From Syntrophales bacterium (GTDB taxonomy: Bacteria; Desulfobacterota; Syntrophia; Syntrophales; UBA2210), in NCBI GenBank assembly GCA_028718565.1, contig JAQULO010000011.1:1-44258 (forward strand): a stretch of 44,258 nucleotides of DNA. The letters run 5' to 3'. A program made the position numbers and the translations under genes. Under the pieces are notes generated by a model. It did not search any database. It had not been told where the DNA came from and worked only from the letters and a program-made list of their open reading frames with translations. Below are positions 12,208 to 30,428 of this stretch, piece after piece; position 1 is the stretch's first letter, and each line of letters starts with the position of its first letter.

Positions 12208-13791
12208 TCAAGCAGGATCGGCCCTTTTGACCAGCGTGAAAAGATGATCATCGACCGTATCATGAAAGGCTCTGTAGGCGATTCCGTCCACAGTCATACG
12301 GCTTTGGTTCTGCCCGATACGATTGACGGCGACCGCCTTCCAGCATCGTGAAATCTCTCGACCTATTGCCTTGGATACGCCTTCTTTGATCGACCAGACG
12401 CGAAGAGACGCGTGAATATTCCCGAGTTCAGAGTTCTCCGTCAAGTCCATCTCCTCGTCACCCATAAAAAGATGCCGGGTCTTCAAAATCCTGTCGGATA
12501 TCCTTTCCACATCGACTCCGATCGGCTCGTTACCGGCAACGGCAACGGCAAAGCGCGCATCGTGCGCGACAGAACAAAAGGCGGTTGCCTCAACGCCGGG
12601 TGCGTGACAACAGGGGCGAATCCCGTCGGGCATCAGCGTGTGGAGGTCAGAGGCAGGACGGGTCGCGTTCTCTCCGGACAATATTCTTGCCAGGTGTTTC
12701 AGGGCAAGGCGTCCGGCGAGATAGTCCTTCCGCCTTTTCGGACCCATGGTTGCCAGACGATCATATTCGGGCGGTGTCAGCGCCTTGTCGGCAAAATCAG
12801 CCACGGCTTTGATCTCAATCAGTGACAGCGCCAGGGAATGCTCCCGAATAGTGGTGAGAGGTGCGCCGGTGCGGACCGTATCAGCCGCAACCCACGCCGG
12901 AGGCCGGATGCGTCCCCCGGAGACATCTTTCATGACGACGCCTCTGATATCCTCACAGAGAGATCCGTTCGGGGTATATATAAAGATATCGAAGAAGAGG
13001 GGGTTTTTGACGGAAGCGCCGGGAGGGGCAATGGGTAGAATCCTGCAATAATAGCGATCTCCCCGTCGGGTCGGCGTTATAATCACCCTTTCCCGAAAGC
13101 CCACCGGAAAGGCCACGATCTGCCGGAAGCGTTGGCCCCAAGCGCAGGCGGCATGCAGGGCGGCATCAAAAGGGAAGGGGGAACCGAGGGGGTGAATCGG
13201 TGCTGGATGGTCCGCGGCGCACGCCTGACCGAGGGCGCCATCTTCGGAGAGGAGAAGAGAACCCGTTATATTCTGATATGCCGGTCCGAAGGGGACGAGT
13301 TCTTCGTACAGCCTCCGGGCGGGAATTTCGAAGACGATCCCCTCCAGGGCCGCAGCGATATCCAGGGGCAGGGGAGGGCCGTCCGCTCCCGAATCAGCAA
13401 AATCGACGACGGCATGAACCTTCGTTCTTCGGATGGTCGAGCCGGCGACCGGGCCGGTCGTCATGAGCCGGGATGTCAGGCGGCCGTTTTCATGGACCTC
13501 CAGTTCGTGACAGGCATCGATAACGGCGCTATCCCCTTCAATCGGTAAAAAGCGGTCGAAGGCGGCGGCGCGCATGCACTGAACGGGGGCGCCAGGACGA
13601 TGCGACTGCAGCGAAGCGGCCAGTTGCTGTAGAATCTCTACGGCGGGAAACATTATTTTCCCCTCATAGTGATGATCTCTGAGATAGGGCTGAATGGAAA
13701 TCGCCAGGGGGAGCCGAATTCTCTCCTTTACGGCCGACACGTCCGGCTTTGAAACGTTTGACGGGGGCGTTGACGCATTCGAAGCTTTCAT
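12208..13791 (-). CDS. Polyketide-type dehydratase fused to 4'-phosphopantetheinyl transferase
   Basis: A two-domain protein of 527 residues. Residues about 25-300 are a double-hotdog PKS-type dehydratase with the catalytic HxxxGxxxxP motif (H40, G44, P49 in HHYEGKIMFP) and a likely catalytic Asp209 in FPFDAALHAACAWGQ. Residues about 320-527 are a Sfp/AcpT-type transferase with SVAHD (407-411), IGVDVERI (about 424-431) and WSIKEGVSK (466-474). The first domain would dehydrate a beta-hydroxyacyl chain; the second would activate the cluster's ACPs. The same domain pair occurs in polyunsaturated-lipid synthases, where it is usually part of much larger proteins. The start overlaps the stop of the radical SAM gene (ATGA). 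Confidence 0.88.
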   Translation of the reverse strand: MKASNASTPPSNVSKPDVSAVKERIRLPLAISIQPYLRDHHYEGKIMFPAVEILQQLAASLQSHRPGAPVQCMRAAAFDRFLPIEGDSAVIDACHELEVHENGRLTSRLMTTGPVAGSTIRRTKVHAVVDFADSGADGPPLPLDIAAALEGIVFEIPARRLYEELVPFGPAYQNITGSLLLSEDGALGQACAADHPAPIHPLGSPFPFDAALHAACAWGQRFRQIVAFPVGFRERVIITPTRRGDRYYCRILPIAPPGASVKNPLFFDIFIYTPNGSLCEDIRGVVMKDVSGGRIRPPAWVAADTVRTGAPLTTIREHSLALSLIEIKAVADFADKALTPPEYDRLATMGPKRRKDYLAGRLALKHLARILSGENATRPASDLHTLMPDGIRPCCHAPGVEATAFCSVAHDARFAVAVAGNEPIGVDVERISDRILKTRHLFMGDEEMDLTENSELGNIHASLRVWSIKEGVSKAIGREISRCWKAVAVNRIGQNQSRMTVDGIAYRAFHDTVDDHLFTLVKRADPA

Positions 13792-15335
13792 GATGGGTCA
13801 TTGTCCCTTTTGTGCATCCGGGGCTGCGACGTTTCCTTGCTTGAGGAAAATCTTTTCAGATCCTCAAACCGGTTCATCTCCTCTAGGCCCTTGATATACT
13901 GACGGTACCGCTTCTCCCATCCATCCCTGTGAATCTGTCTATCTACAAAATATTTCATGACCGGTTTAACCGCGTGTGTCCAGGCGGACGTCCACAACCT
14001 TCCCTGGCTGCGGGCAAAGGGGGAGGGGTTCCACCAGCCCAGCGTAACCTGCCGATGATACCAGAAGGCATATTGAAGTTGATCGGCCTCCAGATGCCGC
14101 GTTTTTACATTGGCCCAGAGGCCGTTGTAACGGTCATAATGATCAAGGTTTGTCACCAGGCCCTCGCCGAGCAGGTGCTCCCTTAGCGGGGTTTTGGGGA
14201 AGGGCGAAAGCATTTGACAGTAAGAGGCGTCCGCTTCCAGTTCGTTCAGGAACTGGTAGTTTCTCCGAACGGCCTCCTCATCATCATCGGGCAATCCAAA
14301 GATCAGCCCTCCGATCACCATGATGCCGTGACGGTGGCAATTGGCGACGGCCTGCCTTGCCTTTTCTACAACGCCGGCTTTTTCCATGGTCCGGAGGTTC
14401 TGCTCCGATACATTTTCGATCCCCAGGAAGACGCTCCGAAATCCCGCCTGGGCCATCTTTTCCACCATCGCTTCGTTTTTGGCCATGGAGATACAGTCAG
14501 CCTGCACTACCAGGTTCAGATTGCGGTATTTTCTGGCGATGATGGCATCACAGACCTCCAGAACCCATTTGGGATTCAGGACCATGTTGTCGTCGGTAAT
14601 GAAAACAAGGCGTGTTTTTTTGTTGAAGTAGATATCGTCAAGATCGGCAATGATGCGCTCAATCGGATAGGTCCGATAAGACCTGCCATACATATGATTG
14701 ATGCTGCAGAAATTGCAGTTGCGGGTGCAGCCACGCGATGTTTCCAGGACTTCGATTTTGGAATACATGAAGTGGTAACCGCCCGTTAACCGGCGCTTAT
14801 CCCGGATGGGGAGCTTCAACCGGGACAGATCGCAGAGCGCCCCCGGGGCGTTGTGAACCCATCGGCCGTCATTTTTATACGAAAGGCCCGGAATCGAATC
14901 CATCCGGTCCGTTCCCTCCAGAGCGTTTACCAGGCGGCGGAACGTCTCTTCCCCCTCCCCCCTGATCATAAAGTCGACAGGGTCCGTGTCGGAGCAGTCG
15001 GCCATTTCCTGAGACATGAGTGTCGTATGATAACCGCCGACGGCAATCTTCACCTGGGGAAGGATTTCTTTGATGAGTCCGATCAGGGCCAGACAGGTTT
15101 GATATTGCCAGGTCATGGTCGAGAGCCCGATCAGGTCGGGCTTGATCCTTTGCAGGGTTTTTCTGAGGTAGGGGGCGATCTTCTTTCTTTTACGGATCAG
15201 ATCGATCAGCGAGACCTCGTGATGCCCGTCGACATTGCCCCCGAGACAGGCGATTCCGTGATTGGGCATGTGAATGGCCGCTTCATGAATAATGATGGGT
15301 ATCACATCGGGCATGGAGATCAGAACGACTTTCAT
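13788..15335 (-). CDS. Radical SAM enzyme with N-terminal B12-binding-type domain (1)
   Basis: Protein of 515 residues. The first 150 resemble the cobalamin-binding fold found in BchE/MtaB-like radical SAM enzymes (IKPDLIGLSTMTWQ, KIAVGGYHTTLM, FMIRGEGEETF). The radical SAM cluster ligands are C203, C207 and C210 in SRGCTRNCNFC, and a glycine-rich SAM segment is seen in IGGLIFGLPDDDEE. The C-terminal 130 residues are of unknown role. Such enzymes methylate or rearrange unactivated carbon atoms, so it probably acts on a carrier-bound or lipid-bound acyl chain. Both ends overlap neighbouring genes. The true reaction cannot be inferred from sequence. Confidence 0.88.
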   Translation of the reverse strand: MKVVLISMPDVIPIIIHEAAIHMPNHGIACLGGNVDGHHEVSLIDLIRKRKKIAPYLRKTLQRIKPDLIGLSTMTWQYQTCLALIGLIKEILPQVKIAVGGYHTTLMSQEMADCSDTDPVDFMIRGEGEETFRRLVNALEGTDRMDSIPGLSYKNDGRWVHNAPGALCDLSRLKLPIRDKRRLTGGYHFMYSKIEVLETSRGCTRNCNFCSINHMYGRSYRTYPIERIIADLDDIYFNKKTRLVFITDDNMVLNPKWVLEVCDAIIARKYRNLNLVVQADCISMAKNEAMVEKMAQAGFRSVFLGIENVSEQNLRTMEKAGVVEKARQAVANCHRHGIMVIGGLIFGLPDDDEEAVRRNYQFLNELEADASYCQMLSPFPKTPLREHLLGEGLVTNLDHYDRYNGLWANVKTRHLEADQLQYAFWYHRQVTLGWWNPSPFARSQGRLWTSAWTHAVKPVMKYFVDRQIHRDGWEKRYRQYIKGLEEMNRFEDLKRFSSSKETSQPRMHKRDNDPS

Positions 15336-16102
15336 TGCTTCACCTTGCTTTCCATCAGCGTTCGCACCTCAGCCATGAGGCCGGAGAGCGAGAAGGAGCC
15401 GCTGTCGTACTCAGGCTGAAAGCTTCCGGCCAGGAGCACTTCTATAACATGATTTTCATGGGTGTTGAACAAAAAGTGATCGGGAGAATAGAGCTTGTCG
15501 GTATTCCGGATGACGACAACCTGAATGGGCGCACGACAGAGTCTGGCGATACGGAAGGCACCCTTGTCGAAGGGGCCGATATGGCCATTGCGGCTCCTGG
15601 TCCCCTCAGGAAAGACGAATATATTGCCGCCTCCTGTCAGATAGGTCCCCATCGACTTGATCTGATTCAGCATGTCCTCGGTGGGACCGGCTTCCGCCAA
15701 AGAGGTTATATATCCGGATGTTCTCAATATCCCGCCGAAGACCGGCAAATTGAAATAATTGCCTTTGACGATGGTTTTCTGCTTGTCAAAGAGGGACACG
15801 AAGAGGATGGGATCGAGAAAAGAGACATGGTTGGCAACGATGATCGAAGAGCGGATGTCGCGCACTTCTTGGGAAATACGCCAGGTGACCCGGGGGATCA
15901 GGCATCGTACCAGGGCGAAAAAACAACGGTGGAGCAGGTTGTTTAATTTCTGGAATGATTCCTCCCGCCGATTTGAAAAGCACAGGACATACAGATAAAA
16001 GGGAGAAAAAAACAGAAGATATCCTACGATATAATATATCCAGAGAATGAGGGTAATGCTGAAATCCTTGATCAAACCGGTTCGCCCCGACTGCCCGTGC
16101 AT
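15332..16102 (-). CDS. PlsC-like 1-acylglycerol-3-phosphate acyltransferase
   Basis: Membrane acyltransferase of about 256 residues. The catalytic NHxxxxD motif is NHVSFLD (N91, H92, D97) and the acyl-acceptor motif FPEGTRS lies at about 164-170. Two hydrophobic N-terminal stretches (SITLILWIYYIVGYLLFFSP) anchor it. It would transfer a chain to the 2-position of a lysophosphatidate, or to a related alcohol. Its start lies just after the stop of the KS gene and its stop overlaps the radical SAM start. With the PlsY-like gene of the same operon it suggests that the chain ends up in a glycerolipid. Confidence 0.85.
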   Translation of the reverse strand: MHGQSGRTGLIKDFSITLILWIYYIVGYLLFFSPFYLYVLCFSNRREESFQKLNNLLHRCFFALVRCLIPRVTWRISQEVRDIRSSIIVANHVSFLDPILFVSLFDKQKTIVKGNYFNLPVFGGILRTSGYITSLAEAGPTEDMLNQIKSMGTYLTGGGNIFVFPEGTRSRNGHIGPFDKGAFRIARLCRAPIQVVVIRNTDKLYSPDHFLFNTHENHVIEVLLAGSFQPEYDSGSFSLSGLMAEVRTLMESKVKQ

Positions 16103-16106
16103 GGCG

Positions 16107-17348
16107 TCACCGGCCCTGCCATTTCTTGAAGATCAGGTTTGTATTCACCCCGCCGAATGCAAAATTCTGGACGGAGGCGATTCGCAACGGCGTTTCCCGG
16201 AGCTTCATCACGTGATTGATCATGGCGCATCTGTCGTCGACTTCTTCAAGGTTCAGGGTCGGCACAAGAAGCCCTTCTTCCATCAGAGTCAACACGATGA
16301 TCGTCTCGATGACGCCGCAGGAGCCCATGGTGTGCCCCATGTAGCTCTTCGGGCCGAAAACGGCGGGGCGGTTCCCGTAGATTCTGTGAATCGCCTGCGA
16401 CTCTATCACATCCCCCATCTTGGTTCCCGTCGCATGGGCGCAGACGAGATCGACCTCGCCGGCTGAGACTTCTGCGTTTTTCAAGCCGAGGCGGATCGTC
16501 TCGGTAATGCCGTCGATATTGGGCAGAATAAGGTCGCCGCCGTTGTTGTTGCAGGAAAATCCGATAATCTCTCCCAGAATAACAGCCCCTCGCGCCCGGG
16601 CATGTTCGTATTCTTCCAGCAGGACGGCCCCAGCCCCTTCGGCGACCACCAACCCGTCGCGTTTCACATCGAAGGGACGAGGGGTCAAATGGGGTGTTGC
16701 GTTGAAGGCCGTTGAACAGGCCAGCAGGTTGTCGAAGACGGCCACGGTCGTCGTATCGTATTCGTCCGCCCCGCCGCAGAGCATGGCATCCTGCATCCCG
16801 AATTTGACCGCTTCGTAGCCGAAGCCGACCGACTGGCTGCTCGTCGTGCAGGCGGTCGAAGAGGAGATGACGCGCCCCGTGATCCCGAACATCTTGGTGA
16901 TATTAACGGCGGTCGTATGGACCATTGATTTGAGATAATCGACCGCGCCAATGGAAGAATATCCCGTCTTGTCTTCGCTGAAAAATGTCTTGTAAATCGA
17001 CCGTTGCACGGTGGGACTTCCGTGGGTTGATCCGAAAGCGACACCGAGCCGGCCGGAGGTGATGAATGCCTCATCCAGGCCGGAATCCTGAAGCGCTTCT
17101 TTTGCCACCTGGCAGGCGTAATAGGCCACAGGTCCCATGGTTTTGCGGTGTTTGCGAATGAAATCGTATTCGATCGGGTAATCAACGGTCCCGAAGACCT
17201 TGGAATGGATATGAGAAGTCAGGACATCATCTTCCCGGAGAACCTTGACCCCTGAGATGCCCTGCGTCAGATGCCGGAGAATATCTTCCCGTGAGCGGCC
17301 GATCGGGGTGATGGCGGAACAGGCAGTAACAACGACTCTTCTTTCCAT
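16107..17348 (-). CDS. FabF-type ketosynthase (1)
   Basis: Condensing enzyme of about 413 residues with an intact Cys-His-His triad: C167 in STACTTSSQS, H305 in CAHATGTKMGD and H339 in SYMGHTMGS. It elongates ACP-bound acyl chains by two carbons. ATG 17348 is chosen because GAGGAG lies just upstream; the 28 additional residues of the longer frame lack family features. An unusual point is TTSSQ instead of the common SSGLH/SSGN after the catalytic cysteine. It follows an ACP gene by 44 bases. Confidence 0.92.
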   Translation of the reverse strand: MERRVVVTACSAITPIGRSREDILRHLTQGISGVKVLREDDVLTSHIHSKVFGTVDYPIEYDFIRKHRKTMGPVAYYACQVAKEALQDSGLDEAFITSGRLGVAFGSTHGSPTVQRSIYKTFFSEDKTGYSSIGAVDYLKSMVHTTAVNITKMFGITGRVISSSTACTTSSQSVGFGYEAVKFGMQDAMLCGGADEYDTTTVAVFDNLLACSTAFNATPHLTPRPFDVKRDGLVVAEGAGAVLLEEYEHARARGAVILGEIIGFSCNNNGGDLILPNIDGITETIRLGLKNAEVSAGEVDLVCAHATGTKMGDVIESQAIHRIYGNRPAVFGPKSYMGHTMGSCGVIETIIVLTLMEEGLLVPTLNLEEVDDRCAMINHVMKLRETPLRIASVQNFAFGGVNTNLIFKKWQGR

Positions 17349-17392
17349 ATAACTCCTCAACGAGGTGTTGGAGGCACCCGTTTTACAGGTTG

Positions 17393-17656
17393 CTAAGTCC
17401 GGCTTGCGGCCAACCTCTCCACATAATCGCACACTTGGCGCAGCGTCCTGATATCCATGGCCTGTTTCTTTTCCTCCTGGGTCAGCTCAGAGTCAAGCAT
17501 GTTTTCAATCTCCAGGAGGAGTTCAATCGCATCGATGCTGTCAAAGTCGTGTTTTTCTCTTAAATCGTCATCCATCCCCGGGTCTTCCATTTCAAATTCC
17601 TTCCGGCAAAAATCAAGGATGGCCGTTTCAATTTCTTTTCGTGTCATAGAGGTCAT
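17393..17656 (-). CDS. Acyl carrier protein (2)
   Basis: ACP of about 87 residues with the phosphopantetheine serine in DFDSIDAIELL and an acidic helical surface. ATG 17656 follows GGAG by six bases; the extra upstream residues in the longer frame come from a TTG start and are not needed. It lies between the thioesterase and ketosynthase 1 with gaps of only tens of bases, so it is likely the main carrier for one of these enzymes. Confidence 0.93.
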   Translation of the reverse strand: MTSMTRKEIETAILDFCRKEFEMEDPGMDDDLREKHDFDSIDAIELLLEIENMLDSELTQEEKKQAMDIRTLRQVCDYVERLAASRT

Positions 17657-17682
17657 CAAATACTCCAATAGTAATGATCTTT

Positions 17683-18162
17683 TCAGGTCGGGAAGGTTTT
17701 CCAGAGCTGAACGGTTTTAGGATCGACAGCCGTGGGCTTCCCCGAAGCGCTCAGGGCACAGTGCTTGGTAAAACCTTTGCAGACGAGCGCGCCCGACTCG
17801 GCATGGGTGATGACATAGTCAAAGCGGAGCTTGACCCGCTCCAGTTCCGCCGGGCGGGTGTAGACGAACAGGGGATCGTCATAATGGAGTGGCTCGTAAA
17901 ATTGGACTCCCAGATCGAAGATCGGATAGACGTAACCGCTGGCCTCCACCTCTTTGTACGGATACGCCGTGTCGCGCATGAGGGAGGCGCGACCGTATTC
18001 AAAATAGCGCAGGTAATTAGCGTGATAGACAACATCCGAACGATCCGTATCGGCGTAAAGTATCCTGTTTTTGCAGCGGTGCCAGTAAAACCCTGTCGAT
18101 TGATCCCGAAAATAGAAGGATTGCATCGACTGGCTTTCCGGCTTGAAAGGTTGAGGCCTCAT
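17683..18162 (-). CDS. Hotdog thioesterase of the YbgC/4-hydroxybenzoyl-CoA type
   Basis: Acyl-thioesterase of about 159 residues. The hotdog signature is seen in LYADTDRSDVVYHANYLRYF (about 35-54), where the usual glycine after the DTD triplet is replaced by Ser-Asp. Family members release acyl groups from CoA or ACP, and aryl-polyene clusters usually contain one or two. ATG 18162 overlaps the region of the KS stop and has AGGGG nine bases upstream. It may edit or release chains stalled on the ACPs. Confidence 0.85.
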   Translation of the reverse strand: MRPQPFKPESQSMQSFYFRDQSTGFYWHRCKNRILYADTDRSDVVYHANYLRYFEYGRASLMRDTAYPYKEVEASGYVYPIFDLGVQFYEPLHYDDPLFVYTRPAELERVKLRFDYVITHAESGALVCKGFTKHCALSASGKPTAVDPKTVQLWKTFPT

Positions 18163-18163
18163 A

Positions 18164-19429
18164 TCATACGCCCCTGAAGAGAATGCAACAGTTTGTTCCC
18201 CCGAATCCGAAGGCATTGACCAGGGCAATTTCATGATGGGTCTTCCTGGCTTGGTTTGGAACAAAGTCGAGACCCTCAAACTGGGGATCGGGGATATGGT
18301 TGATCGTGGGAAGAATCAGTCCCTGCCGCATCCCTTCAATGGTCAGCGTATCCTCGATCGCAGCTGCCGCGCCCAAGGTATGACCGATCTGGGATTTGTT
18401 TGATGATATGGGAATGCGCTTCAAACGATCGCCGAAGACCTCCTTCAGGCAGTCCACCTCGGTTTCATCCCCCCTGGATGTTGATGTTCCGTGAGCATTG
18501 ATATAATGCACGTCATCCGGAGTCAGCTGGGCATCATCGATTGTTTCTCGGATTGCCCGGACAATCGTTTCTTTCTTCGGCCGGGTAAAATGGTGGGCAT
18601 CGGATGTCCAGCCGACGCCAATCACCTCCGCTCTGGCCTGGAGACCGTGCGCGGCAATCGCTTCTTCGGCGGCCAGGACAATCACTCCGCCCCCTTCCGA
18701 AACGACAAAGCCCTTGCGATCGAGGCTGAACGGGCGCGAGGCCTGAAGGGGATCGTCATGTGCCCGGTCATGGGCGTTGATTTTTATGGTGGCGTTCATA
18801 TTGGCGAAGCCGTGAATAATCTCAGGGATTATGGGCATATCCACCCCCCCTGCCAAGACAAAGTCACAATCGCCGTCGCGGATCATTCGGGAGCCGATGC
18901 CGATGGCGTGGTTGCCGGAGGCACAGGCCCCCTGGGGCGAAAAGACCGGACCGGTAAAGCCCATGAGCATTCCCGCTTTCCCCGACGGCAGGTTGGCGCA
19001 TAAATTGGGTAGAAGATAGGGACTGACTTTGAGACCGCCCCCGTCCCGCACGTTGTTCATGGCAATGCGGAATGAGTCTGTGCCATTGATGGCCGAGCCG
19101 ATCAGGCAGGCCGTTCGGGGGGCCGTATCCTTATCCATTAGGAGACCCGCATTCTCCATGGCTTCCTTGACAACGGCCATGGTGAGAATCACAAAGGAGG
19201 CATTCCAGTTGTATACTTCCTTCTCATCGGAAAAATCGTAGCCCCTGGGATCCCAATCGGGGATTTCCCCTACGACATTACACAGGGAATCCACTTGGCA
19301 CCGGGTCACCTTACGAAACCCCGACTCTCCGCGGACCGCCCGCTCCCACGTCTTCGCAAAGGTCTTCCCCAACGGAGTGGCGGCGCCATATCCGATCACA
19401 AAAACCCGTCTGTTCTTGGGCGCCTTCAT
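18164..19429 (-). CDS. FabF-type ketosynthase (2)
   Basis: Condensing enzyme of about 421 residues with C169 in PQGACASGNHAI and the histidines in NAHGTSTSRGD and SQIGHTLGAAAA, so catalytically complete. The start MKAPKNRRVFVIGYGAATPLG fits the family, and ATG 19429 is preferred over the longer frame. It sits directly before the thioesterase. With ketosynthase 3 it forms a tandem pair of similar but clearly distinct enzymes, so the cluster probably uses different condensations for different chain positions. Confidence 0.92.
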   Translation of the reverse strand: MKAPKNRRVFVIGYGAATPLGKTFAKTWERAVRGESGFRKVTRCQVDSLCNVVGEIPDWDPRGYDFSDEKEVYNWNASFVILTMAVVKEAMENAGLLMDKDTAPRTACLIGSAINGTDSFRIAMNNVRDGGGLKVSPYLLPNLCANLPSGKAGMLMGFTGPVFSPQGACASGNHAIGIGSRMIRDGDCDFVLAGGVDMPIIPEIIHGFANMNATIKINAHDRAHDDPLQASRPFSLDRKGFVVSEGGGVIVLAAEEAIAAHGLQARAEVIGVGWTSDAHHFTRPKKETIVRAIRETIDDAQLTPDDVHYINAHGTSTSRGDETEVDCLKEVFGDRLKRIPISSNKSQIGHTLGAAAAIEDTLTIEGMRQGLILPTINHIPDPQFEGLDFVPNQARKTHHEIALVNAFGFGGTNCCILFRGV

Positions 19430-19461
19430 CCTGTAGACCTCAGTGTTTCCATCATCCGTAC

Positions 19462-20712
19462 CTATTCCGTCCGGCGAAGAACAACGCAGGCATTGCAGCC
19501 GCCGAATCCGAATGCATTTTTTAACACAAATTCCTGGGGAAGCACCCTGGCCCCTTCCGCCACACAATCGATATCAATCTCCGGGTCGGGAGCGTAATTG
19601 ATGGTCGGCAGGAGGGTGTCGCGCCGCATTCCCTCCATGGCGAGAATCATTTCGATTGCGCTTGATGCCCCCATCGCATGACCCGTCTGGGACTTGTTGG
19701 CCGACACCGGAGGCATCCGATTCCCGAAAACTTCGCGTAGGGCGTCTACCTCAATCTTGTCGCCGATTTTGGTAGAGGTGCCGTGGGCATTGACCGCAGC
19801 GATGTTCCCCGGAACGAGACCCGCATGAGTGATGCTCTCTGCGATGCACCGCCTGGCCGTTTCCAGGTTCGGAGCGACAAAATGGTGGGCATCCGATGTC
19901 ATGGCCCACCCCGCCATCTCAAAGGCCGGTTTCAGGCGGCGGGATTCGGCAAAGGCCTTGCTTGCAACCACAACGCACCCCGCGCCTTCCGACGCGACAA
20001 AGCCGCGGCGATTCAAGGAGAAAGGACGACTTGCCTTCTCCGGCGATTCCTCCGGCTGGCCCTCTTTGGGCCTGAAGCTGCCGTTCATGGATGCAAAGCC
20101 CCCCAAAAGGGTTTCAACGAGAGGAAAATCCACGGCGCCGCAGATCACCACATCGGCCATTCCTGCTTCGATGAGCATGGCGCCGATGATCACGGACGTA
20201 GCTCCGGTCGCACAGGCAGTGATAGTAGCGGTAATGGGACCGGTTGCCCCGGTCATGATCGATATCTTGCCGCCGACCATGTTGATACAGGAGTTCGGAT
20301 TGGTGAAGGGATGCGGAAGCTTCCCGTCGGCAACCAAGAGCCTGTCGGCCTGAATGACCGCATCGAGCCCCCCCACGGCAGAGCTGAAGGTTATGGCCGT
20401 TCGCGGCGCCAGATCCGCTGTCATCTCGATCCCGCTTTTCTCCAGCGCCCGCCGGACAACGAGCATGGCGTACTTGAAAATTGGGGACGACCAGAGAGCC
20501 ATGTCGCGTGACGCCAGAAAGGGGTAAGCCCCGGTATCGATATCCTCAACCTGGCCGGCGATTCTGACCGGGAAACGATCTCTCAGGGGAAAACGGGTCA
20601 GGGCGACGATGCCGCTCCGACCTTCCGAGGCCCGCTTCCACTGCGTCTCCAGATCGATGCCCAGCGGGGAAACGGCGTCATAGCCAAGGATGACCGGTCT
20701 GTGTCTTTTCAT
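19462..20712 (-). CDS. FabF-type ketosynthase (3)
   Basis: Condensing enzyme of 416 residues with C167 in TITACATGATSV and the histidines in NAHGTSTKIGD and SQTGHAMGASSA. The start MKRHRPVILGYDAVSPLG is typical. It is 32 bases upstream of ketosynthase 2 and 40 bases downstream of a radical SAM gene. The insertion PKEGQPEESPEK around residues 218-229 differs from the other ketosynthases of the cluster. It is likely active, with an unknown chain-length preference. Confidence 0.92.
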   Translation of the reverse strand: MKRHRPVILGYDAVSPLGIDLETQWKRASEGRSGIVALTRFPLRDRFPVRIAGQVEDIDTGAYPFLASRDMALWSSPIFKYAMLVVRRALEKSGIEMTADLAPRTAITFSSAVGGLDAVIQADRLLVADGKLPHPFTNPNSCINMVGGKISIMTGATGPITATITACATGATSVIIGAMLIEAGMADVVICGAVDFPLVETLLGGFASMNGSFRPKEGQPEESPEKASRPFSLNRRGFVASEGAGCVVVASKAFAESRRLKPAFEMAGWAMTSDAHHFVAPNLETARRCIAESITHAGLVPGNIAAVNAHGTSTKIGDKIEVDALREVFGNRMPPVSANKSQTGHAMGASSAIEMILAMEGMRRDTLLPTINYAPDPEIDIDCVAEGARVLPQEFVLKNAFGFGGCNACVVLRRTE

Positions 20713-20752: not shown

Positions 20753-21751
20753 CTACCAGGGGATGAATCGGTAGAGCTTGGCAAACATCTCATAAACTTC
20801 TATCCAGTTCTGTAGATCCCGAGTCGACTTCAGATGCGCACGCTTGTTGACCATCACCCAGCTCATATGGGCGGCGCCGTCTTTGCACGTGGCGCAGTTC
20901 CTGGTTGCTGAGGTGCAGCATCGGTGTACGGTCCGGAGATCAGAAGCCCACCGGACAAACCGGATGAGTCGTTTGGGCTGAGGCTTTCGGTCGTCCAACT
21001 GTTCGGTGACGGAGGGGCATTCGTTCCAGCCGAAGGGGCGCCCCAGCATCTTCCCCGTAGTGATGATTTCGTGATAGTACTTGGAGGAGATCACCGTCCG
21101 CGGGTAGGCATCGAGCATGGCGTCCATTTCGACACGGACATCCCGGAGCTTTTCATCCGTCCAGAAAAACCCGTCCACCTGCTCATCATTCGTCAACAAC
21201 TGGAGATGAACCTTCAGCCCCACATCGGAGATCTTCCGGATGACCGGTTCCATCCGTCCGACCTGCTTCGGCGTAATGGTGTAGAGGTAGTAGGCATTCG
21301 GATCTCCTTCATAGTGCTTGCTTGATACGGCAAAGGTGTCTCTGCCCCGCAGCACCTTTTCGTCCTCTTCATTTCCCCACAACGAAATACCCACCATCAT
21401 GTCGGGGAAACGGTCACGCGGAACCTTGATCTGCCCGTTGGTCGCGCAAAACGTCGGCATCACCTGATAAAACGCCTCGATCCGATCAAACTGGAGGGTC
21501 GGCTCGCCGCCGATCAAGATCGCCAGGTTCACCCCCCGCTCCTTTTCCTGCCGGACAAAGGCGCGCCACTTGGCCGGATCCGTTTCTTCTATAGCCGCTT
21601 CATGCTCGTTGGATGAAAAGAAAAAACACCCCTTGCAGCGCAGATTGCACCGGTTGGTAACATCGTAGATGGAACTTCGGATATTGAGCGCGGAGATCTT
21701 CCGGTATCGCTCATGCCACGCAGCATCCAGTAACGAACTGACAGTATTCAT
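20753..21751 (-). CDS. Radical SAM enzyme, paralogue A of a tandem pair
   Basis: Protein of 332 residues with the radical SAM cluster ligands C35, C39 and C42 in TNRCNLRCKGC close to the N-terminus. The glycine-rich SAM segment reads LIGGEPTL. The C-terminal part holds several cysteines (HRCCTSATRNCATC) that could bind an auxiliary iron-sulfur cluster, as in SPASM/Twitch-type proteins. The gene is paralogous to the one just upstream on the same strand (21830). Both share segments such as ISLWGN and ISVWGN, and YTITP and YTFTR. Substrate unknown; acting on an acyl chain is the obvious guess from context. Confidence 0.85.
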   Translation of the reverse strand: MNTVSSLLDAAWHERYRKISALNIRSSIYDVTNRCNLRCKGCFFFSSNEHEAAIEETDPAKWRAFVRQEKERGVNLAILIGGEPTLQFDRIEAFYQVMPTFCATNGQIKVPRDRFPDMMVGISLWGNEEDEKVLRGRDTFAVSSKHYEGDPNAYYLYTITPKQVGRMEPVIRKISDVGLKVHLQLLTNDEQVDGFFWTDEKLRDVRVEMDAMLDAYPRTVISSKYYHEIITTGKMLGRPFGWNECPSVTEQLDDRKPQPKRLIRFVRWASDLRTVHRCCTSATRNCATCKDGAAHMSWVMVNKRAHLKSTRDLQNWIEVYEMFAKLYRFIPW

Positions 21752-21829
21752 AGGCTACAGGTCTCTTCTCAAAACAAGGTCCGGACTGTTGACGGACAAC
21801 GGATCGCGGTCATGCCGGCCGGCATCGTA

Positions 21830-22921
21830 TTATTCCGGCCTTTGAGGCGGCTCGACCTGCTCAGGACACAGGTTGTCGCTTTTTTTATAACCCATGACCC
21901 AGACAGCCAGATAGGTGTCGACATAGTCAAGCCATGACCTGAATGTATCCGGTTGTGTCGCGTGCCGGTGGAGGCGTGCGGTGACCACGGCGCTGCCGGA
22001 GGCGTAATGCCGACAGTCGTTGCAATCCGTGTCGGGGACGCAACACGCTTTCTCCCGATCCCAGGAGAGATCTGCCCGGTATTGGCGGAAGGATCGCCCC
22101 AGACCGATGTCCTCAGAAGGGTTCATGCGCGGGTATGAACATCCGTAGATCTGATGCAGACCGGACGGTTGTGTATGGGCGACGGCATTATACGTCGAAT
22201 AGATTACATTTTCGGGATACTGCGCAAGAAGATCCAGCATGACTCTGCGTGTCAGATCCAATGATTTGAGATCGTGTCGGAGATTGCCTTCATAGCCGAC
22301 AGGGGCCGAAAACATATTGAAGGTAACCTTGCCGCCGTGGCCGGCGATCATTTTCACAACCTCATGGGCCTCATCGATATTGTTTCGTGTAAACGTATAA
22401 ACGAAAAGGGCCCTGGGGTCATTTTGATAATTATCGAGCTGCTTTAATAATAAATTTTTTGCTCTTCTGATGCGTAAGCTCGTACGATCATTGCCCCAGA
22501 CTGAGATATGTATCCTGTAGCCGACCGATTCGGGGATGCGTATGAAACCGTTGGTGGCGATGCAGCCGAGGGAAACTTCTTCGTAACAGGTCTCCAGAAT
22601 ACGCGGGACGAGGGACGGCTCGGCCCCCGCCAGTACAACAAACGTAATCCCTCTTTTTTTCTCCTGGCTCATCAACTCCTGCCAGGCCTTGGGGTTTTCA
22701 TTGCACTGGGCGAACTGTTTTTGTCCCTCATAATAGTAACAACCGTCGCAGCGGATGTTGCAGCGCGTGGTCATGTCGTAGCTCGATTCCCGGAGAAAAA
22801 AATACTTTCGCACCTTTTCCCAGCGCTCGCGAACCGCGGCGTCGGCCAGGATCTCAGAAAATTTCCAGATTCCTGATTCTGTATTGCAACGGGATGATGC
22901 CAGGGTACTTGTCTGATTCAT
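21830..22921 (-). CDS. Radical SAM enzyme, paralogue B of a tandem pair
   Basis: Protein of about 363 residues with the cluster ligands C54, C58 and C61 in TTRCNIRCDGCYYYEG. It also has the partner paralogue's landmarks: LAGAEPSL, ATNGFIRIP, ISVWGN and a cysteine-rich C-terminal part (CCVPDTDCNDC) that may hold a second cluster. ATG 22921 is preferred over the upstream TTG because GGTGG lies at the right distance. A 78-base gap separates it from paralogue A. The tandem retention suggests sequential or partner roles on one substrate. Confidence 0.85.
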   Translation of the reverse strand: MNQTSTLASSRCNTESGIWKFSEILADAAVRERWEKVRKYFFLRESSYDMTTRCNIRCDGCYYYEGQKQFAQCNENPKAWQELMSQEKKRGITFVVLAGAEPSLVPRILETCYEEVSLGCIATNGFIRIPESVGYRIHISVWGNDRTSLRIRRAKNLLLKQLDNYQNDPRALFVYTFTRNNIDEAHEVVKMIAGHGGKVTFNMFSAPVGYEGNLRHDLKSLDLTRRVMLDLLAQYPENVIYSTYNAVAHTQPSGLHQIYGCSYPRMNPSEDIGLGRSFRQYRADLSWDREKACCVPDTDCNDCRHYASGSAVVTARLHRHATQPDTFRSWLDYVDTYLAVWVMGYKKSDNLCPEQVEPPQRPE

Positions 22922-22944
22922 CGCTTGACCACCAATCAACCGGT

Positions 22945-23214
22945 TTATTTATTTTCCAAATTCTGCCGGATATAGTCGGCGATCTTGCGAATGCTGCCGA
23001 GCTTCGGATAATCGTCTTCGTCGATGGCAACGCCATACTCATCCTGAAGCACCAGAACCACCGTCGCCATATCCATACTATCGACACCCAACTCATCGAC
23101 CAGGTCAAGATCGGGCGCAAAGGCCTCCGGGGTCATATTTTCCAGCTTCAGCTCGAAAATGATAATTTCGGCAATACGACGAATCAGGGCTTCCTGATCT
23201 ACACATGCAGACAT
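22945..23214 (-). CDS. Acyl carrier protein (3)
   Basis: ACP of about 89 residues with the phosphopantetheine serine in ELGVDSMDMATVVL. The sequence differs from the canonical DSL/DSI form by having Met after the serine, and the region after it (ATVVLVLQDEYG) is less acidic than in the other ACPs. ATG 23214 follows AAGGAGG by seven to eight bases, an excellent ribosome site. It lies next to the FabZ-like gene and may be its preferred carrier. Confidence 0.92.
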   Translation of the reverse strand: MSACVDQEALIRRIAEIIIFELKLENMTPEAFAPDLDLVDELGVDSMDMATVVLVLQDEYGVAIDEDDYPKLGSIRKIADYIRQNLENK

Positions 23215-23244
23215 CCACAACCCTCCTTGCTGAACAAAAACATG

Positions 23245-23619
23245 TTATAACAGCACCACATTCATCATTCCGGTGCAAGACGTTTCTCCGTTTACGGCAA
23301 CTTTAAAGTGCCAGTCGAGACGATCCCCGCGATCCGGAAGCGTCAGGGATATCGTCAAGACATCCCCCGGCCTGACGGGCAGCCTGAACCTGACCCTTTT
23401 GATGCCGGCTATTTGAACTTGTTTCCCCATTTCTGACGCATGCCGACGGACGATATCACCCACCATGGCCAACAGGGCAACGCCGGGCAGAATCGGTGCA
23501 TTGGGGAAGTGGCCGGAAAACCACTGTGATGACGGATCAATGCATGCTTCCGCCCAAACGGGCCCATCCGGTCCCGACCCCCTGCCTTGATAGGATACGC
23601 TGTGCCAAATTTCCTGCAT
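23245..23619 (-). CDS. FabZ/ApeI-like 3-hydroxyacyl-ACP dehydratase
   Basis: Hotdog-fold protein of 124 residues. The catalytic histidine is H37 in SGHFPNAPILPGVALLAM. The acidic partner found 14 residues after this histidine in FabA and FabZ (Asp or Glu) is alanine here (A51), while an Asp lies four residues later. It may thus be a dehydratase with a relocated acid, a thioester-binding non-enzyme, or an isomerase-like variant. The start has AGGAG eight bases upstream. The gap to the deacetylase gene (23620-23713) holds only a possible weak promoter. Confidence 0.78.
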   Translation of the reverse strand: MQEIWHSVSYQGRGSGPDGPVWAEACIDPSSQWFSGHFPNAPILPGVALLAMVGDIVRRHASEMGKQVQIAGIKRVRFRLPVRPGDVLTISLTLPDRGDRLDWHFKVAVNGETSCTGMMNVVLL

Positions 23620-23713: not shown

Positions 23714-24532
23714 TCATGACCCGATCCCGTCCGATTTGGACATAATCGGTCGCCCTATCAGCTCGGCAGGGGGAATTATCTGCAATCCCTTATCCCTCAA
23801 GCCGGACAGGATGGAGTCGACCTGGCGGAGCCAGACATTGACTGCTGTCTGCCTCCTCGGTCGGATGTCATGAAGCATAATGATATCATCCTGCTTTACT
23901 TTCTTCAGAATCCGCCGGGACAATCCTCGGAGGCGCCTGTTGCCGAAGTCGTTTCCCCGGCAGGAAAAGTTCAGGGCATATAGTCCCTCCTCCGGGAGAA
24001 TGGCGGCGAGTTTCGGGTTGGTGATGCCTACCGGGGGGCGAAAGGCGATCGGCGCAATACCGAATCGACGGAGCAGAATCTGGGTCGATGCGATCTCGCA
24101 CCTGATGCGCCTGCAGGAACGCAACATCAAAAGGGGATCATGGCAATAGGAGTGATTGCCGATATCGTGCCCCTTTTCGAGGATGGCCGCAATGAGATCG
24201 CTGTGTCTTTCGGCATTCTCCCCCGTTACAAAAAAAGCGGCCTTGATTTCATGCCGATCCAGGAGTTCAAGAAGGGGGCCGGTTGTCACAGGGTCAGGGC
24301 CGTCATCAAAGGTCACGGCGACAAAGGCTCTGCCGGTGCGTCCCCGGCTGATGACAGGCAGGAAAAAGCCTTTCGTCGGGAGAAACGGGGCGATGAGGCA
24401 GAGCACAACAAAGACGGCCAGGGGTGCAATCGCCCATTCGGGCCGATAAAGGTACAGGATCAGACCGAGAAGGAGCGCTGTCAGACCGGTTATCATGGCC
24501 GGTGCGACAGGTCTTTTTTGATGTCCGTTCAT
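23714..24532 (-). CDS. Membrane-anchored polysaccharide deacetylase-like protein
   Basis: Protein of about 272 residues with two N-terminal membrane segments (about 12-30 and 34-52) followed by a NodB-type deacetylase domain. The metal and catalytic motifs are TFDDGPDP (D76-D77), HSYCHD (H127 and H131) and RPPVG, so the enzyme looks complete. Such proteins remove N- or O-acetyl groups from sugars, or act on undecaprenyl-linked aminosugars. A member in a lipid cluster may deacetylate a glycolipid headgroup. ATG 24532 overlaps the previous gene's stop (ATGA). Confidence 0.88.
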   Translation of the reverse strand: MNGHQKRPVAPAMITGLTALLLGLILYLYRPEWAIAPLAVFVVLCLIAPFLPTKGFFLPVISRGRTGRAFVAVTFDDGPDPVTTGPLLELLDRHEIKAAFFVTGENAERHSDLIAAILEKGHDIGNHSYCHDPLLMLRSCRRIRCEIASTQILLRRFGIAPIAFRPPVGITNPKLAAILPEEGLYALNFSCRGNDFGNRRLRGLSRRILKKVKQDDIIMLHDIRPRRQTAVNVWLRQVDSILSGLRDKGLQIIPPAELIGRPIMSKSDGIGS

Positions 24533-25878
24533 CGAATCAGATTCTCCCACAGGGGGCCGACACGTCCCCGGGCATGGAGTTTTGCCATCAGCTTGTACAT
24601 TCCCGGCGGCCCGCTCCCGATCACCCAGTTCGTATGTTTGGCGGCATGCGCCATCAAGAGATCTATGACGTCCTCCCGATCCAGGGCCGGTGACCAGTAG
24701 AATGTCGGTTCCAGAAGATTTTTATTGCGGGCGAGCTGCTTTTCATTCAGGGCCGTTTCATACAAGTCGGTATGCGGATAAATTCTCACCCCGCAAAAGA
24801 CGAAAAGAACGGTTTTCTCCAATTGCACGCCGTTTGATAAAGTGGACTGCAGGGTCCGCTCATTTTCACCGGGACCGCCAAGCATCAGGTAATGGGCCAC
24901 ATGGAGACCGGCGTTTCCCGCAAGCCGATGGGACGCTAAGACATCATCCAGGCGGAAGGGTTTTCGATAGGCGGCCAACATGGGATCGCAGAGGGCTTCT
25001 GAACCGAATTCCACATGCTTCAGCCCGGCATCGGCAAGTTGCCGGTAATAATCGGGAGGCGGGATCGTTGGTGTAAAAAAACCGCCCCAGGGGATTGAAA
25101 GGCCGGCCTTTTTGAAGGCCAGGGCAACCGCCAGGCTGTGCTCATAATCGCCGTTGAAGGTTGAATCAGTCAGGTAGAGGTATTTGGCGCCGGCATCCTG
25201 AAGCATTCTGGCCGTGTGCGCAACCTTTCCCGGCTCTGTAAAACGGAATCGGTTTCCTTCGATATGGGGATAGGTGCAATATATGCAGCGGAAGGGGCAC
25301 CCTCTCTTCGTCTGCAGATTGAGCATGCCGCCCCTCTCAAGATAAAAAGACCTGTAAGAATGATCGGGAATGTCGCCGCGCTCGAACGATTCGGATAGCG
25401 GACCAGGAAAGACAACGGGGCCGCTTCCGGTTACGACGCCGGGGATGCCGGAAGCGGGCTCCTTTTTCTGGAGGGCATGCAGCAGCAGAGGGAATCTTTC
25501 TCCTTCGCCGATAACGCCATAATCGGCGTCCAGTCCGGCCATGAATTCGCCGGGCAGGATCGTAAAGCCGCTTCCCCCAAGGACGATAATAGATTTCGAG
25601 TGGCGGCGAACGGTATCGATGAGGCCTCTGATCGTTTCGATAAAGGTTTTCGTATGCGTGTCATCGACGTTGTCGATGTTGCGGATCGAGATGCCGATCA
25701 CGTCGGGGCTATAATCGTTGACAATAGGGGCAAGATTCTCCCGGTCTTTCAGATCGTTCATGTCGATGCTTTTTACCTGATGAGGCGGGGAGATGGCATT
25801 GATGACATAGTCCAGGCCAATAGGGTACGTCGGATAGGGCAGTGTCATTGTGTTGGTTGAGATGAGTAATACTCTCAC
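24529..25878 (-). CDS. Radical SAM enzyme with N-terminal B12-binding-type domain (2)
   Basis: Protein of about 449 residues from GTG 25878, which overlaps the previous stop and follows GGAGG by six bases; the 74 extra residues of the longer frame are noise. The N-terminal 160 residues resemble a cobalamin-binding domain (VRVLLISTNTMTLPYPTYPI at the start, then SPDVIGISIRNI and VLGGSGFTILP). The cluster ligands are C194, C198 and C201 in KRGCPFRCIYC, and the late segment YLMLGGPGENERT contacts SAM. It is unrelated in detail to radical SAM 1 and probably does a different step. It sits next to the CrtI-like gene. Confidence 0.87.
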   Translation of the reverse strand: MRVLLISTNTMTLPYPTYPIGLDYVINAISPPHQVKSIDMNDLKDRENLAPIVNDYSPDVIGISIRNIDNVDDTHTKTFIETIRGLIDTVRRHSKSIIVLGGSGFTILPGEFMAGLDADYGVIGEGERFPLLLHALQKKEPASGIPGVVTGSGPVVFPGPLSESFERGDIPDHSYRSFYLERGGMLNLQTKRGCPFRCIYCTYPHIEGNRFRFTEPGKVAHTARMLQDAGAKYLYLTDSTFNGDYEHSLAVALAFKKAGLSIPWGGFFTPTIPPPDYYRQLADAGLKHVEFGSEALCDPMLAAYRKPFRLDDVLASHRLAGNAGLHVAHYLMLGGPGENERTLQSTLSNGVQLEKTVLFVFCGVRIYPHTDLYETALNEKQLARNKNLLEPTFYWSPALDREDVIDLLMAHAAKHTNWVIGSGPPGMYKLMAKLHARGRVGPLWENLIR

Positions 25879-27356
25879 TGAAAACCTCCGGCAACGTCCT
25901 GCGTGAATCTTTCCTGGCCGACGACCTGTCTGACTGCCTGAAAAGATCCCAGGACCGTTCCCATGATGCCGGGAGACAGCCTGTTCTGACCGGCCAGAAA
26001 CAAGCCTTTGACAGGGAGACGGTTCAAAGAGACCGCCCTCATCAGCTGTGAGGCCGAACGAAGAATGCCGTAGGGCGACCCGTCGGGACTGTGCACCCAA
26101 TCACGGACGGTCAAAGGGGTATAGCAGTCCAACACCTTCGCGTCCCCGAGGGGGCCGAACAACCGTGCCGCCGCCTCCATGACCTGATAAGCCTTTTCGG
26201 CTTTGCGGCTTTCATAGTCCGTGCCGCGTCTGCCCGATGTCGTTTTCTCCCAGGGCTGCCATTCCTCGATACCGCTGGCGGTTATCATGGACAGGAGATT
26301 CGTGCCCGTCTGTCCGGTACGCCGTATCTGATTGAAAATTCCACGGTACAGGTTGCCGTTTTCTTCCGGGTGCAGGCGATAGATATTGTAGGGCAGTGCC
26401 GGGTGCTCTTCGGCATCAACGGCCACATTGACGCCCAAGAGACCCTCGGTGTCCAGCAGGGTTGTCACTCTTTCGGCATAGGATGACCGGACCGCTTCCG
26501 GCGGCAGGAGGGCAAGAATCGTCTTGGGGTGAATGGCGGCAATGACGGTCGTTGCCGACAGGATGCGCCCCGATTGCAAAATAACGCCTTTTGCCCGACC
26601 CGCGTCAATCTCAATAGCCTTGGCGCCGTCCCCTGCTATGACCGTTCCGCCCAGGGAACTGAACCGGGAGAGAAAGGCCTCCGCCATGGTGTTACTGCCT
26701 TCGGCCAATCGCCAGGACGACATCAGGTAAGAGGCCAGTGTCATATAATAATAGAAGATGGGACAGTCGTTCAGGGGAACGCCGATAAGGACGGCCGGGA
26801 CACTCAGGACAGCGATAAGACGGGAGGAACAACCCATCTTGAGCAGACGCCTGCCCATGGGGTCCATACTCTGTGGGGAGACGTTTGCTATCGTCGGGGA
26901 CAACACCATGTCGAGTCCGGACAACACACGCGACATTTCCCTGAGATCACCCGTGATGGCGGCAATCTGATCGTACTCCTCAGGGAAGGCGCGGCAGAGA
27001 TTGTCTTCAAAGGCGTCAATGCCCTCGGGCAGATCAAAGACAAAATCATCAAAGATGTAACGATCGATGATCCCGTCCGCACCCATCCGCTCGAGCGGGA
27101 TCAACGGGGTGACGCCTAGGCAATCCCATAGTCTGCGCAGAGGCTGCCCCTGATCGAGGGCGCCAAGGTAATGAACGCCGGTGGGGCAGTCGATATCGCA
27201 ACGTCGATAACTGCGCATCAATCCCCCGGGTTGGGTAGCGCGCTCGACAATGGTGACCGGAAAGCCGAGCTTCGACAGGAGGATGCCGGCTGTTAATCCG
27301 CCGATTCCCGATCCGATGATCAGAATATCGCCCGGGGTTGCATCCTCTCGCATCAT
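25875..27356 (-). CDS. CrtI/phytoene desaturase-like FAD oxidoreductase
   Basis: Protein of 493 residues. The dinucleotide-binding loop is IIGSGIGGLTAG (about 13-24) followed by VERATQPGGLMRSYRR, and the C-terminal FAD contact is KGLFLAGQNRLSPGIMG. It belongs to the carotenoid desaturase/isomerase superfamily, which desaturates, isomerises or saturates long conjugated chains. No phytoene synthase or other carotenoid gene is near, so the substrate is more likely the cluster's polyene or polyunsaturated acyl chain. Both ends overlap neighbouring genes. CrtI-like genes of this kind are also listed among candidates for ladderane synthesis. Confidence 0.9.
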   Translation of the reverse strand: MMREDATPGDILIIGSGIGGLTAGILLSKLGFPVTIVERATQPGGLMRSYRRCDIDCPTGVHYLGALDQGQPLRRLWDCLGVTPLIPLERMGADGIIDRYIFDDFVFDLPEGIDAFEDNLCRAFPEEYDQIAAITGDLREMSRVLSGLDMVLSPTIANVSPQSMDPMGRRLLKMGCSSRLIAVLSVPAVLIGVPLNDCPIFYYYMTLASYLMSSWRLAEGSNTMAEAFLSRFSSLGGTVIAGDGAKAIEIDAGRAKGVILQSGRILSATTVIAAIHPKTILALLPPEAVRSSYAERVTTLLDTEGLLGVNVAVDAEEHPALPYNIYRLHPEENGNLYRGIFNQIRRTGQTGTNLLSMITASGIEEWQPWEKTTSGRRGTDYESRKAEKAYQVMEAAARLFGPLGDAKVLDCYTPLTVRDWVHSPDGSPYGILRSASQLMRAVSLNRLPVKGLFLAGQNRLSPGIMGTVLGSFQAVRQVVGQERFTQDVAGGFQ

Positions 27357-29573: not shown

Positions 29574-29855
29574 TCAAACCGTTTTAGCCCGAGTTTCTCC
29601 GGATAATCCGTTGTTAAAGACGTATTCCGCCAACGAGGTAACGGATGCAAAGACTTTTACACCGAGTTCCTTGTTGTCGATTTCCACGCCGTACTCTTTT
29701 TCGAGCATCATTACCAACTCCAGGACATCGATGGAATCTAAACCAAGATCGCCCCCGATGAGTTGCGCGTCCTGATCCATATCCTCAAGGGTGATATCGA
29801 TCAGATTCAACGTCTCGATAATCTTCTGCTTAAGTTCGATAATTAATTGATCCAT
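29574..29855 (-). CDS. Acyl carrier protein (4), first gene of the minus arm
   Basis: ACP of about 93 residues with the phosphopantetheine serine in LGLDSIDVLELVMML. ATG 29855 follows GAGGA by five bases; the TTG-started longer frame adds only four residues. It is the first gene of the minus-strand operon. Upstream of it (29856-29944) I see a weak TTGCAT/CATAGG promoter-like pair on the minus strand, but nothing convincing. It is probably the partner of the ketosynthase-CLF fusion that follows. Confidence 0.93.
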   Translation of the reverse strand: MDQLIIELKQKIIETLNLIDITLEDMDQDAQLIGGDLGLDSIDVLELVMMLEKEYGVEIDNKELGVKVFASVTSLAEYVFNNGLSGETRAKTV

Positions 29856-29944
29856 AACATTCCTCAATGCTTGGAGTTACGCTCCTATGACACAAATTGA
29901 TAAAGAATGCAATCAAGAGTCCTTTACCGGCACGGACCTGATAG

Positions 29945-30428
29945 ATGATTCACGGTGACACCAAACGATTATCCCTTCTGGAAGGGCAGAAAGCTCTGGA
30001 ACGTCGTGAATATCTTATCGTGGCCATTGATGACTTCTCCAGGGATCTCTACGCAGCCATCCTTCCAGATAACTCGTCAGAGGAGTGTCCCTATACGATT
30101 GAGCGGTCCTACGGTGACAATGGAAAAGAGTATTGGGCATCATACCTTTATGAAGTCATGCCTGGCTAACAGTATCGAACAGCGCTTTACCCGGGTTAGA
30201 ACACCGAGAACAAATGGCAAGGCCGAACGGGTTATCAAAATTATCATGGACATGTGTCATAAAAAGACCATGTTTTGCTCTTCCGCTCACAGAAAGACAG
30301 AGCTAATAGGCTTTATCAATTACTACAATGGGGCTTGTCTTCACAAAGGAGTAGGCGGACTTACCCCAGAGGAAAAACTGATTGAATATTTTATCCCGAA
30401 AAACTGTAAACAACGCTCGACTTTCTGA
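29945..30428 (+). pseudogene. Broken IS481-like transposase remnant
   Basis: Part of a DDE transposase of the IS481/rve type, missing its N-terminal region and split by a frameshift near 30160. The first frame carries IHGDTKRLS (first catalytic Asp), VAIDDFSRDLYAAIL and YGDNGKEYW (second Asp). The other frame continues with RTPRTNGKAERVIK (catalytic Glu) and a tail ending at 30428. It cannot make a full transposase. It marks the outer edge of the lipid cluster, only 90 bases upstream of its first minus-strand gene. Confidence 0.75.

Follow-up and report, generated by a model that had tools for sequence, protein, structure and literature searches.

The window, the whole stretch of 44,258 nucleotides that was analysed, belongs to a Syntrophales bacterium and carries a set of minus-strand genes running from 29867 to 11625, which Table 1 lists in cluster order from ACP1 to the PlsY-type acyltransferase. 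Four of the genes encode radical SAM enzymes: the adjacent pair rSAM2 and rSAM1, and two B12-binding proteins. The ketosynthase and chain-length-factor-like protein (PF13723; 27353-29551) looks as though ApeO and ApeC were fused into one protein, and the probable fusion at 12208-13791, which combines a PS-DH-like dehydratase with a 4'-phosphopantetheinyl transferase, is kept in many relatives of the cluster. Elsewhere in the window, positions 865-4014 encode an MMPL transporter-like and methyltransferase fusion, with homologues near the pair at three other loci (L086, L179 and L182). The plus strand between 6084 and 10698 carries a KASIII-like enzyme, a BtrH_N/DUF4872 protein and an ABC transporter, possibly of the same cluster, and a short plus-strand ORF (29955-30428) resembling an integrase/transposase fragment lies between the cluster and a LuxR-type regulator at 30862.

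Table 1. Genes of the minus-strand cluster, in cluster order, with window positions.
Feature	Position	Strand	Remarks
ACP1, acyl carrier protein	29574..29867	-	PF00550
KS-CLF, ketosynthase + chain-length-factor-like didomain, 732 aa	27353..29551	-	PF00109/PF02801, PF13723
CrtD/phytoene-desaturase-like FAD oxidoreductase	25875..27356	-	below the cutoffs of those models
B12-binding radical SAM, 'rSAM_ladder_B12' TIGR04072	24529..about 25878-25920	-	384.8 bits, cutoff 360; start at 25878 inferred from the profile match
Polysaccharide deacetylase family protein	23714..24550	-	PF01522; counterpart in anammox cluster
ApeI/FabA-like dehydratase (DH)	23245..23619	-	PF07977, PF22818
ACP2, acyl carrier protein	22945..23220	-	PF00550; directly upstream of rSAM2
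rSAM2, radical SAM enzyme, 363 aa	21830..22921	-	CNIRCDGC, Cys-rich tail
rSAM1, radical SAM enzyme, 332 aa	20753..21751	-	CNLRCKGC, Cys-rich tail
KS2, beta-ketoacyl-ACP synthase	19462..20712	-	profile matches; adjoins rSAM1
KS3, beta-ketoacyl-ACP synthase	18164..19432	-	profile matches
4HBT acyl-thioesterase (TE)	17683..18279	-	PF13279; position conserved in relatives
ACP3, acyl carrier protein	17393..17668	-	PF00550
KS4, beta-ketoacyl-ACP synthase, PRK09116-like	16107..17432	-	profile matches
PlsC-type acyltransferase	15332..16102	-	PF01553
B12-binding radical SAM, BchE-like	13788..15335	-	below BchE cutoff; in part of relatives
Probable dehydratase/phosphopantetheinyl transferase (PPTase) fusion	12208..13791	-	PF14765 (E=1.3e-4, below cutoff), PF01648
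PlsY-type glycerol-3-phosphate acyltransferase	11625..12191	-	PF02660

The two genes of the pair are separated by 78 nt, and 23 nt lie between ACP2 and rSAM2. The start of rSAM2 is taken as the ATG at 22921; a TTG at 22939 could give a longer protein. The two proteins are 28% identical over 327 aa (E=6e-37) and have in common CxxxCxxC, G(G/A)EP, S(L/V)WGN and a five-cysteine tail (C...CC-x5/6-C-x2-C). In the alignments, rSAM1 has CNLRCKGC, GGEP, ISLWGN and tail cysteines C245, C278-C279, C286 and C289; rSAM2 has CNIRCDGC, GAEP, ISVWGN and C261, C293-C294, C300 and C303. The original prediction had described tandem, diverged paralogues with CxxxCxxC, ISLWGN/ISVWGN and a cysteine-rich tail, beside two B12-type radical SAM enzymes, and it was right in both respects. 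The Pfam Radical_SAM domain (PF04055, cutoff 29.5 bits) was found in rSAM1 at 31.5 bits and in rSAM2 at 24.9 bits, below the cutoff yet with E=2.7e-5, so that both proteins combine the domain and CxxxCxxC with partial matches to the TIM-barrel fold, as in the radical SAM superfamily.

The AF2 models have a mean pLDDT of 92.7 for rSAM1 and 89.8 for rSAM2. Their best Foldseek matches in the PDB are anSME, SkfB, CteB, ChlB, SuiB, BlsE and viperins, with TM of about 0.4-0.55 and mainly in the core. SkfB is also a HMMER profile match (E about 1e-13), in the N-terminal half only, and SpeY and anSME, oxidative SPASM/Twitch enzymes with auxiliary clusters, are among the nearest folds. The SPASM tail motif is CX9-15GX4C...CX2CX5CX3C...C; this spacing was not seen in the alignments of rSAM1 and rSAM2, whose structural matches are weak and core-centred. 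Foldseek with the AF2 models gave no full-length PDB alignment of good quality (TM about 0.5) for either protein, and the tail domain may therefore not be a Twitch domain. Against the named NCBIfam radical SAM equivalogs, the best scores were 31.6 bits for rSAM1 (cutoff 400) and 26.8 bits for rSAM2 (cutoff 180); the latter, a match to viperin, is too weak for that identity. The models for LipS1 and LipS2 (NF053742 and NF053743) and for LipA matched neither protein. rSAM1 and rSAM2 belong to two distinct subfamilies of one radical SAM superfamily; no curated NCBIfam model covers the two proteins.

Relatives of rSAM1 were collected by a genome-collection scan, and the best 80 of 316 were analysed. 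These are 75-84% identical to the window copy and come from Desulfobacterota/Deltaproteobacteria, Spirochaetes and one planctomycete. Of the testable junctions among these best 80 of 316, rSAM2 immediately precedes rSAM1 in 75 of 76, an ACP precedes rSAM2 in 73 of 74, a dehydratase adjoins the ACP in 69 of 70, and KS2 comes after rSAM1 in 67 of 69. DH-ACP-rSAM2-rSAM1-KS-KS-TE-DH/PPTase is thus a fixed module across Desulfobacterota, Spirochaetota and a planctomycete. Both cysteine motifs (CxxxCxxC and C...CC-x4-6-C-x2-C) are present in 80/80 rSAM1 and in 76/76 full-length rSAM2 proteins of this set, whose members were chosen by similarity, independently of the motif; such conservation goes beyond what chance would give. 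Since every full-length copy examined has its cysteines, neither paralogue is decaying, and the loss of functional residues from one copy, which the original prediction had named as a danger to its proposal, was ruled out among these relatives. Median identity to the window copy is 77% for rSAM1, 71% for KS3, 68% for rSAM2, 67% for KS2 and 63% for ACP; in the best 80 of 316, no other protein of the cluster is as well conserved as rSAM1. Despite co-inheritance, rSAM2 evolves faster than rSAM1, as the two medians show (loci L043-L122).

An rSAM2-like match is present in all 28 genomes of the Desulfobacterota sample that have rSAM1, and the two co-occur likewise in Spirochaetota. At one locus (L181) a gap of about 2.4 kb, containing KS2, separates them. 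A lone rSAM1 (L071:4534-5529, 79% identical) was seen on an 8-kb contig that has neither rSAM2 nor other cluster genes. The closest homologous contigs of the window contig are from Syntrophales/Deltaproteobacteria. No full-length match to the pair was found in 18 sampled genomes of the same genus or family, and other families carry proteins with 77-84% identity; this patchy distribution suggests horizontal transfer or loss. The MAG contig may be mis-binned, which leaves the family-level result unaffected.

Single-copy relatives of the pair help to place its origin. The first, rC, is a relative of rSAM1 in four planctomycetes (L136:5081-6193, L137:9081-10235, L138:9632-10720 and L139:9569-10663), with 31-34% identity over most of the length including the tail; at 34% and 202 bits, rC is the nearest full-length homologue outside the pair. 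The second, rD, is closer to rSAM2 and was found at L140:9898-11022, in the phylum of the window, and at L193:9250-10341, in Spirochaetota. The two rD proteins have the tail CCIANxDCxxCRHY and are 50% identical to each other. Their neighbourhoods are unrelated, that of L193 including an SDR gene and an unassigned 351-aa protein, and no lipid or lipoate context surrounds the gene in either genome (G077 and G910).

The unrooted tree splits {rSAM1, rC} from {rSAM2, rD} with support of 100/99, and a clade of rSAM1 and rSAM2 only is rejected by the AU test (p=0.0027), results to be read with some caution since the stems are long (1.4-2.9 changes per site). In a tree with outgroups, rSAM1 and rSAM2 each fall on one side of a branch (99/99), the deep order not being separated. 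Because of the split and the AU rejection, the pair is no exclusive product of duplication within the operon: the duplicating event would predate all four subfamilies, or else rC and rD would have left the pair. The original prediction had assumed a gene duplication kept inside one operon, and that assumption falls; the subfamily tree and genome-context survey it called for indicate instead a co-inherited pair with separate ancestry within the superfamily.

The position of rC is informative. In all four planctomycetes it directly follows homologues of LipS1 and LipS2, which are about 70% identical among these genomes, and the same stretch holds LplA-type ligases and GcvH-like lipoate carriers, with sHdr-type Fe-S genes also nearby in L136, L138 and L139. 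In L139, the LipS1 homologue scores 234 bits (cutoff 230), and the LipS2 homologue 201 bits, below its cutoff of 270, but it is adjacent and the best match. According to passages of PMC10332631 and PMC9585515, an octanoyl chain on a carrier protein gains sulfur through LipS1 and LipS2, two radical SAM enzymes with auxiliary clusters that act successively on one acyl chain (PMC9585515). The searched passages of PMC10332631 do not refer to any third radical SAM gene in such operons. Because rC adjoins LipS1/LipS2, it is the strongest external hint, on the rSAM1 side only, that the superfamily works on carrier-tethered chains.

On this basis, the pair probably modifies a fatty chain that is bound to a carrier protein, a substrate that the gene context makes plausible. 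The model we favour, to which we give slightly less than an even chance, has both enzymes performing successive oxidative steps on an ACP-bound acyl chain, each with one Cys-ligated auxiliary [4Fe-4S] cluster. It draws on the observed gene order, co-inheritance, intact motifs, phylogeny and predicted fold. The CxxxCxxC of each enzyme would hold the SAM-cleaving [4Fe-4S] cluster, and the five conserved tail cysteines would provide full cysteine ligation for one auxiliary [4Fe-4S] cluster. In the putative order, rSAM2 and then rSAM1 would act on the chain of the adjacent ACP; the 5'-deoxyadenosyl radical would take a hydrogen from the chain and the auxiliary cluster would accept the second electron. 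The outcome would be an oxygen-independent two-electron oxidation, most likely a desaturation, and the membrane lipid would be completed by KS/DH elongation, the thioesterase and the PlsY/PlsC-type acyltransferases. Auxiliary clusters often accept an electron in substrate oxidation, as in BtrN, anSME and SpeY, whereas in those that donate sulfur one site is usually open or has a ligand other than Cys. Desaturation is preferred over thiolation because the five tail cysteines would suffice for a fully ligated cluster, unlike those of the sulfur donors. Four points count against this model: the nearest solved enzymes act mostly on peptides, the tail domain may not be of the Twitch type given the poor full-length structural alignments, the CrtD-like flavin enzyme of the cluster could be the desaturase instead, and the single-copy relatives of rSAM2 (rD) are outside lipid or lipoate contexts. 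The original prediction of two distinct radical steps on the acyl chain stands in that the enzymes are related, distinct, apparently functional and encoded in an acyl-ACP operon; succession on the chain is the best reading, and the reaction is what we infer.

An unlikely alternative is C-C bond formation, in which the APE-like KS/DH set would supply a polyene acyl-ACP and the pair would cyclise or cross-link it by radical chemistry into a carbocyclic or ladderane-like chain. The KS-CLF, ApeI-like dehydratase, CrtD-like protein and TIGR04072 'ladder' enzyme of the cluster would suit it (compare the ladderane proposals of PMC2649909 and PMC4790861), and the archaeal tetraether synthase (GDGT-MAS) is among the weak structural and profile matches. 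With TIGR04072, KS paralogues, ACP and a phytoene-desaturase-like gene, the window cluster is a ladderane-like FASII cluster of the Desulfotalea/Kuenenia type. However, the related Desulfotalea cluster yields acyclic polyenes, not ladderanes (PMC2649909), and a profile search of 392 planctomycete genomes found no orthologue of rSAM1 or rSAM2 in the anammox genomes, identified by hydrazine synthase alpha (G538 and G708 among others). Nor is the pair in the two ladderane clusters inspected, which have a TIGR04072 gene with a kuste3343-like radical SAM gene just before it, in the place described for kuste3343. As the pair was not found in these genomes and clusters, it is not needed for ladderanes, and its candidacy as a ladderane enzyme was ruled out. 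Orthology to two Kuenenia proteins, whose names were inferred from the gene order of G538, was also rejected: the Kuste3342-type gene is the counterpart of the TIGR04072 gene of the window (24529-25878, 31% identity), and the Kuste3343-type gene encodes another kind of radical SAM protein, which matches rSAM1 only locally, at 35 bits. In Desulfogranum, Desulfatitalea and Desulfosarcina, some 3 to 16 kb separate the pair from a kuste3343-like gene, of which the window genome has no close homologue. Because the two coexist elsewhere and the kuste3343-like gene is missing here, each forms a module of its own within a larger type of cluster; the rSAM2-rSAM1 pair is an extra module, not ladderane machinery. 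A 5.8-Mb planctomycete genome (G608; contigs C254, C277, C288 and C6) gave 12 Pfam matches to hydrazine synthase alpha, many in ORFs >1000 aa, which may be domain relatives and not hydrazine synthase.

Action of the pair on a peptide, or on a protein such as the ACP itself, instead of on the chain is quite unlikely. SkfB, anSME, CteB and SuiB, the top PDB matches in sequence and structure, include enzymes that modify peptides (SkfB, anSME, SuiB), but these matches lie mainly in the radical SAM core, the short intergenic gaps leave little space for a precursor peptide, and the partner kept beside rSAM2 is an ACP (73/74 in the best 80 of 316). A family restricted to peptides, the second danger that the original prediction had named, is at odds with the nearest full-length homologue lying in lipoate-assembly operons. 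Sulfur insertion is distinctly unlikely: the pair would thiolate the ACP-bound chain at two positions, in the manner of LipS2/LipS1, with the auxiliary cluster as sulfur donor. The neighbours of rC and the precedent for a two-enzyme division of labour (PMC9585515) speak for it, but neither protein matches the NCBIfam models of LipS1, LipS2 or LipA, both lipoyl synthases are already present in the rC operons, and the cluster, with five conserved tail cysteines available, would be fully ligated and non-sacrificial. A recent tandem duplication within the operon, leaving one copy redundant or regulatory, would account for adjacent, same-strand genes with 28% identity, but is very improbable given the tree, the rejected joint clade and the motif cysteines intact in every full-length relative of both copies.

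Successive oxidation of an ACP-bound chain, the favoured model, bears on the oxygen-free synthesis of unusual unsaturated or cyclised chains by strict anaerobes, a question that dates from the ladderane proposals of the 2000s. The candidate genes are now split: TIGR04072 and kuste3343-type genes are common to ladderane producers and the pair is not, for which reason it should underlie a different product. Ladderane-like clusters were already known in 2009; what appears to be new is that rSAM2 and rSAM1 form a fixed module of separate ancestry that true ladderane clusters lack, and the titles, abstracts and passages searched included no paper describing this pair. The small module (ACP, rSAM2, rSAM1, KS2, KS3) is present in culturable strains and directly testable, the pair being encoded by such isolates as Desulfosarcina widdelii, Desulfogranum japonicum and Desulfatitalea alkaliphila, and rC ties the superfamily to lipoate assembly. 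A wider proposal, in our view doubtful, is that the unnamed superfamily acts on carrier-bound acyl chains, the pair catalysing an oxygen-independent desaturation or oxidation in an anaerobic polyunsaturated lipid pathway of sulfate reducers and syntrophs, and rC an undescribed step of lipoate assembly.

Several known systems can be compared with the window cluster. With those of Kuenenia and Desulfotalea it has in common the KS paralogues, ACPs, dehydratase, TIGR04072 enzyme and phytoene-desaturase-like FAD enzyme, as well as a polysaccharide-deacetylase-like protein and a large membrane protein, whereas the anammox clusters examined are without the rSAM2-rSAM1 pair. The FASII clusters of K. 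stuttgartiensis, syntenic with Desulfotalea, already contain four SAM radical enzymes (Rattray et al. 2009, PMC2649909), so that the original prediction counted the four radical SAM genes correctly but was right only in part in calling four such steps unusual. Aryl-polyene (APE) type II PKS systems resemble it in the ApeI-like dehydratase (PF22818), the KS-CLF didomain and the three ACPs of the window, and differ in that the window cluster has four radical SAM enzymes and PlsY/PlsC-type acyltransferases. The SPASM/Twitch enzymes (SkfB, anSME, CteB and SpeY) are like the pair in their radical SAM core and C-terminal cysteines beyond it, but the tail spacing of the pair is about C-x32-CC-x5/6-C-x2-C and no full-length structural match is convincing. 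The rC operon offers a full-length homologue of rSAM1 (34%) with an identical tail, CC-x6-C-x2-C, although rC is single-copy and stands in a lipoate/sHdr context, against the KS/ACP context of the pair. LipS1 and LipS2, which the neighbours of rC match and rSAM1 and rSAM2 do not in NCBIfam, provide the analogy: different radical SAM enzymes, both equipped with auxiliary [4Fe-4S] clusters, that work one after the other on an acyl chain attached to a carrier.
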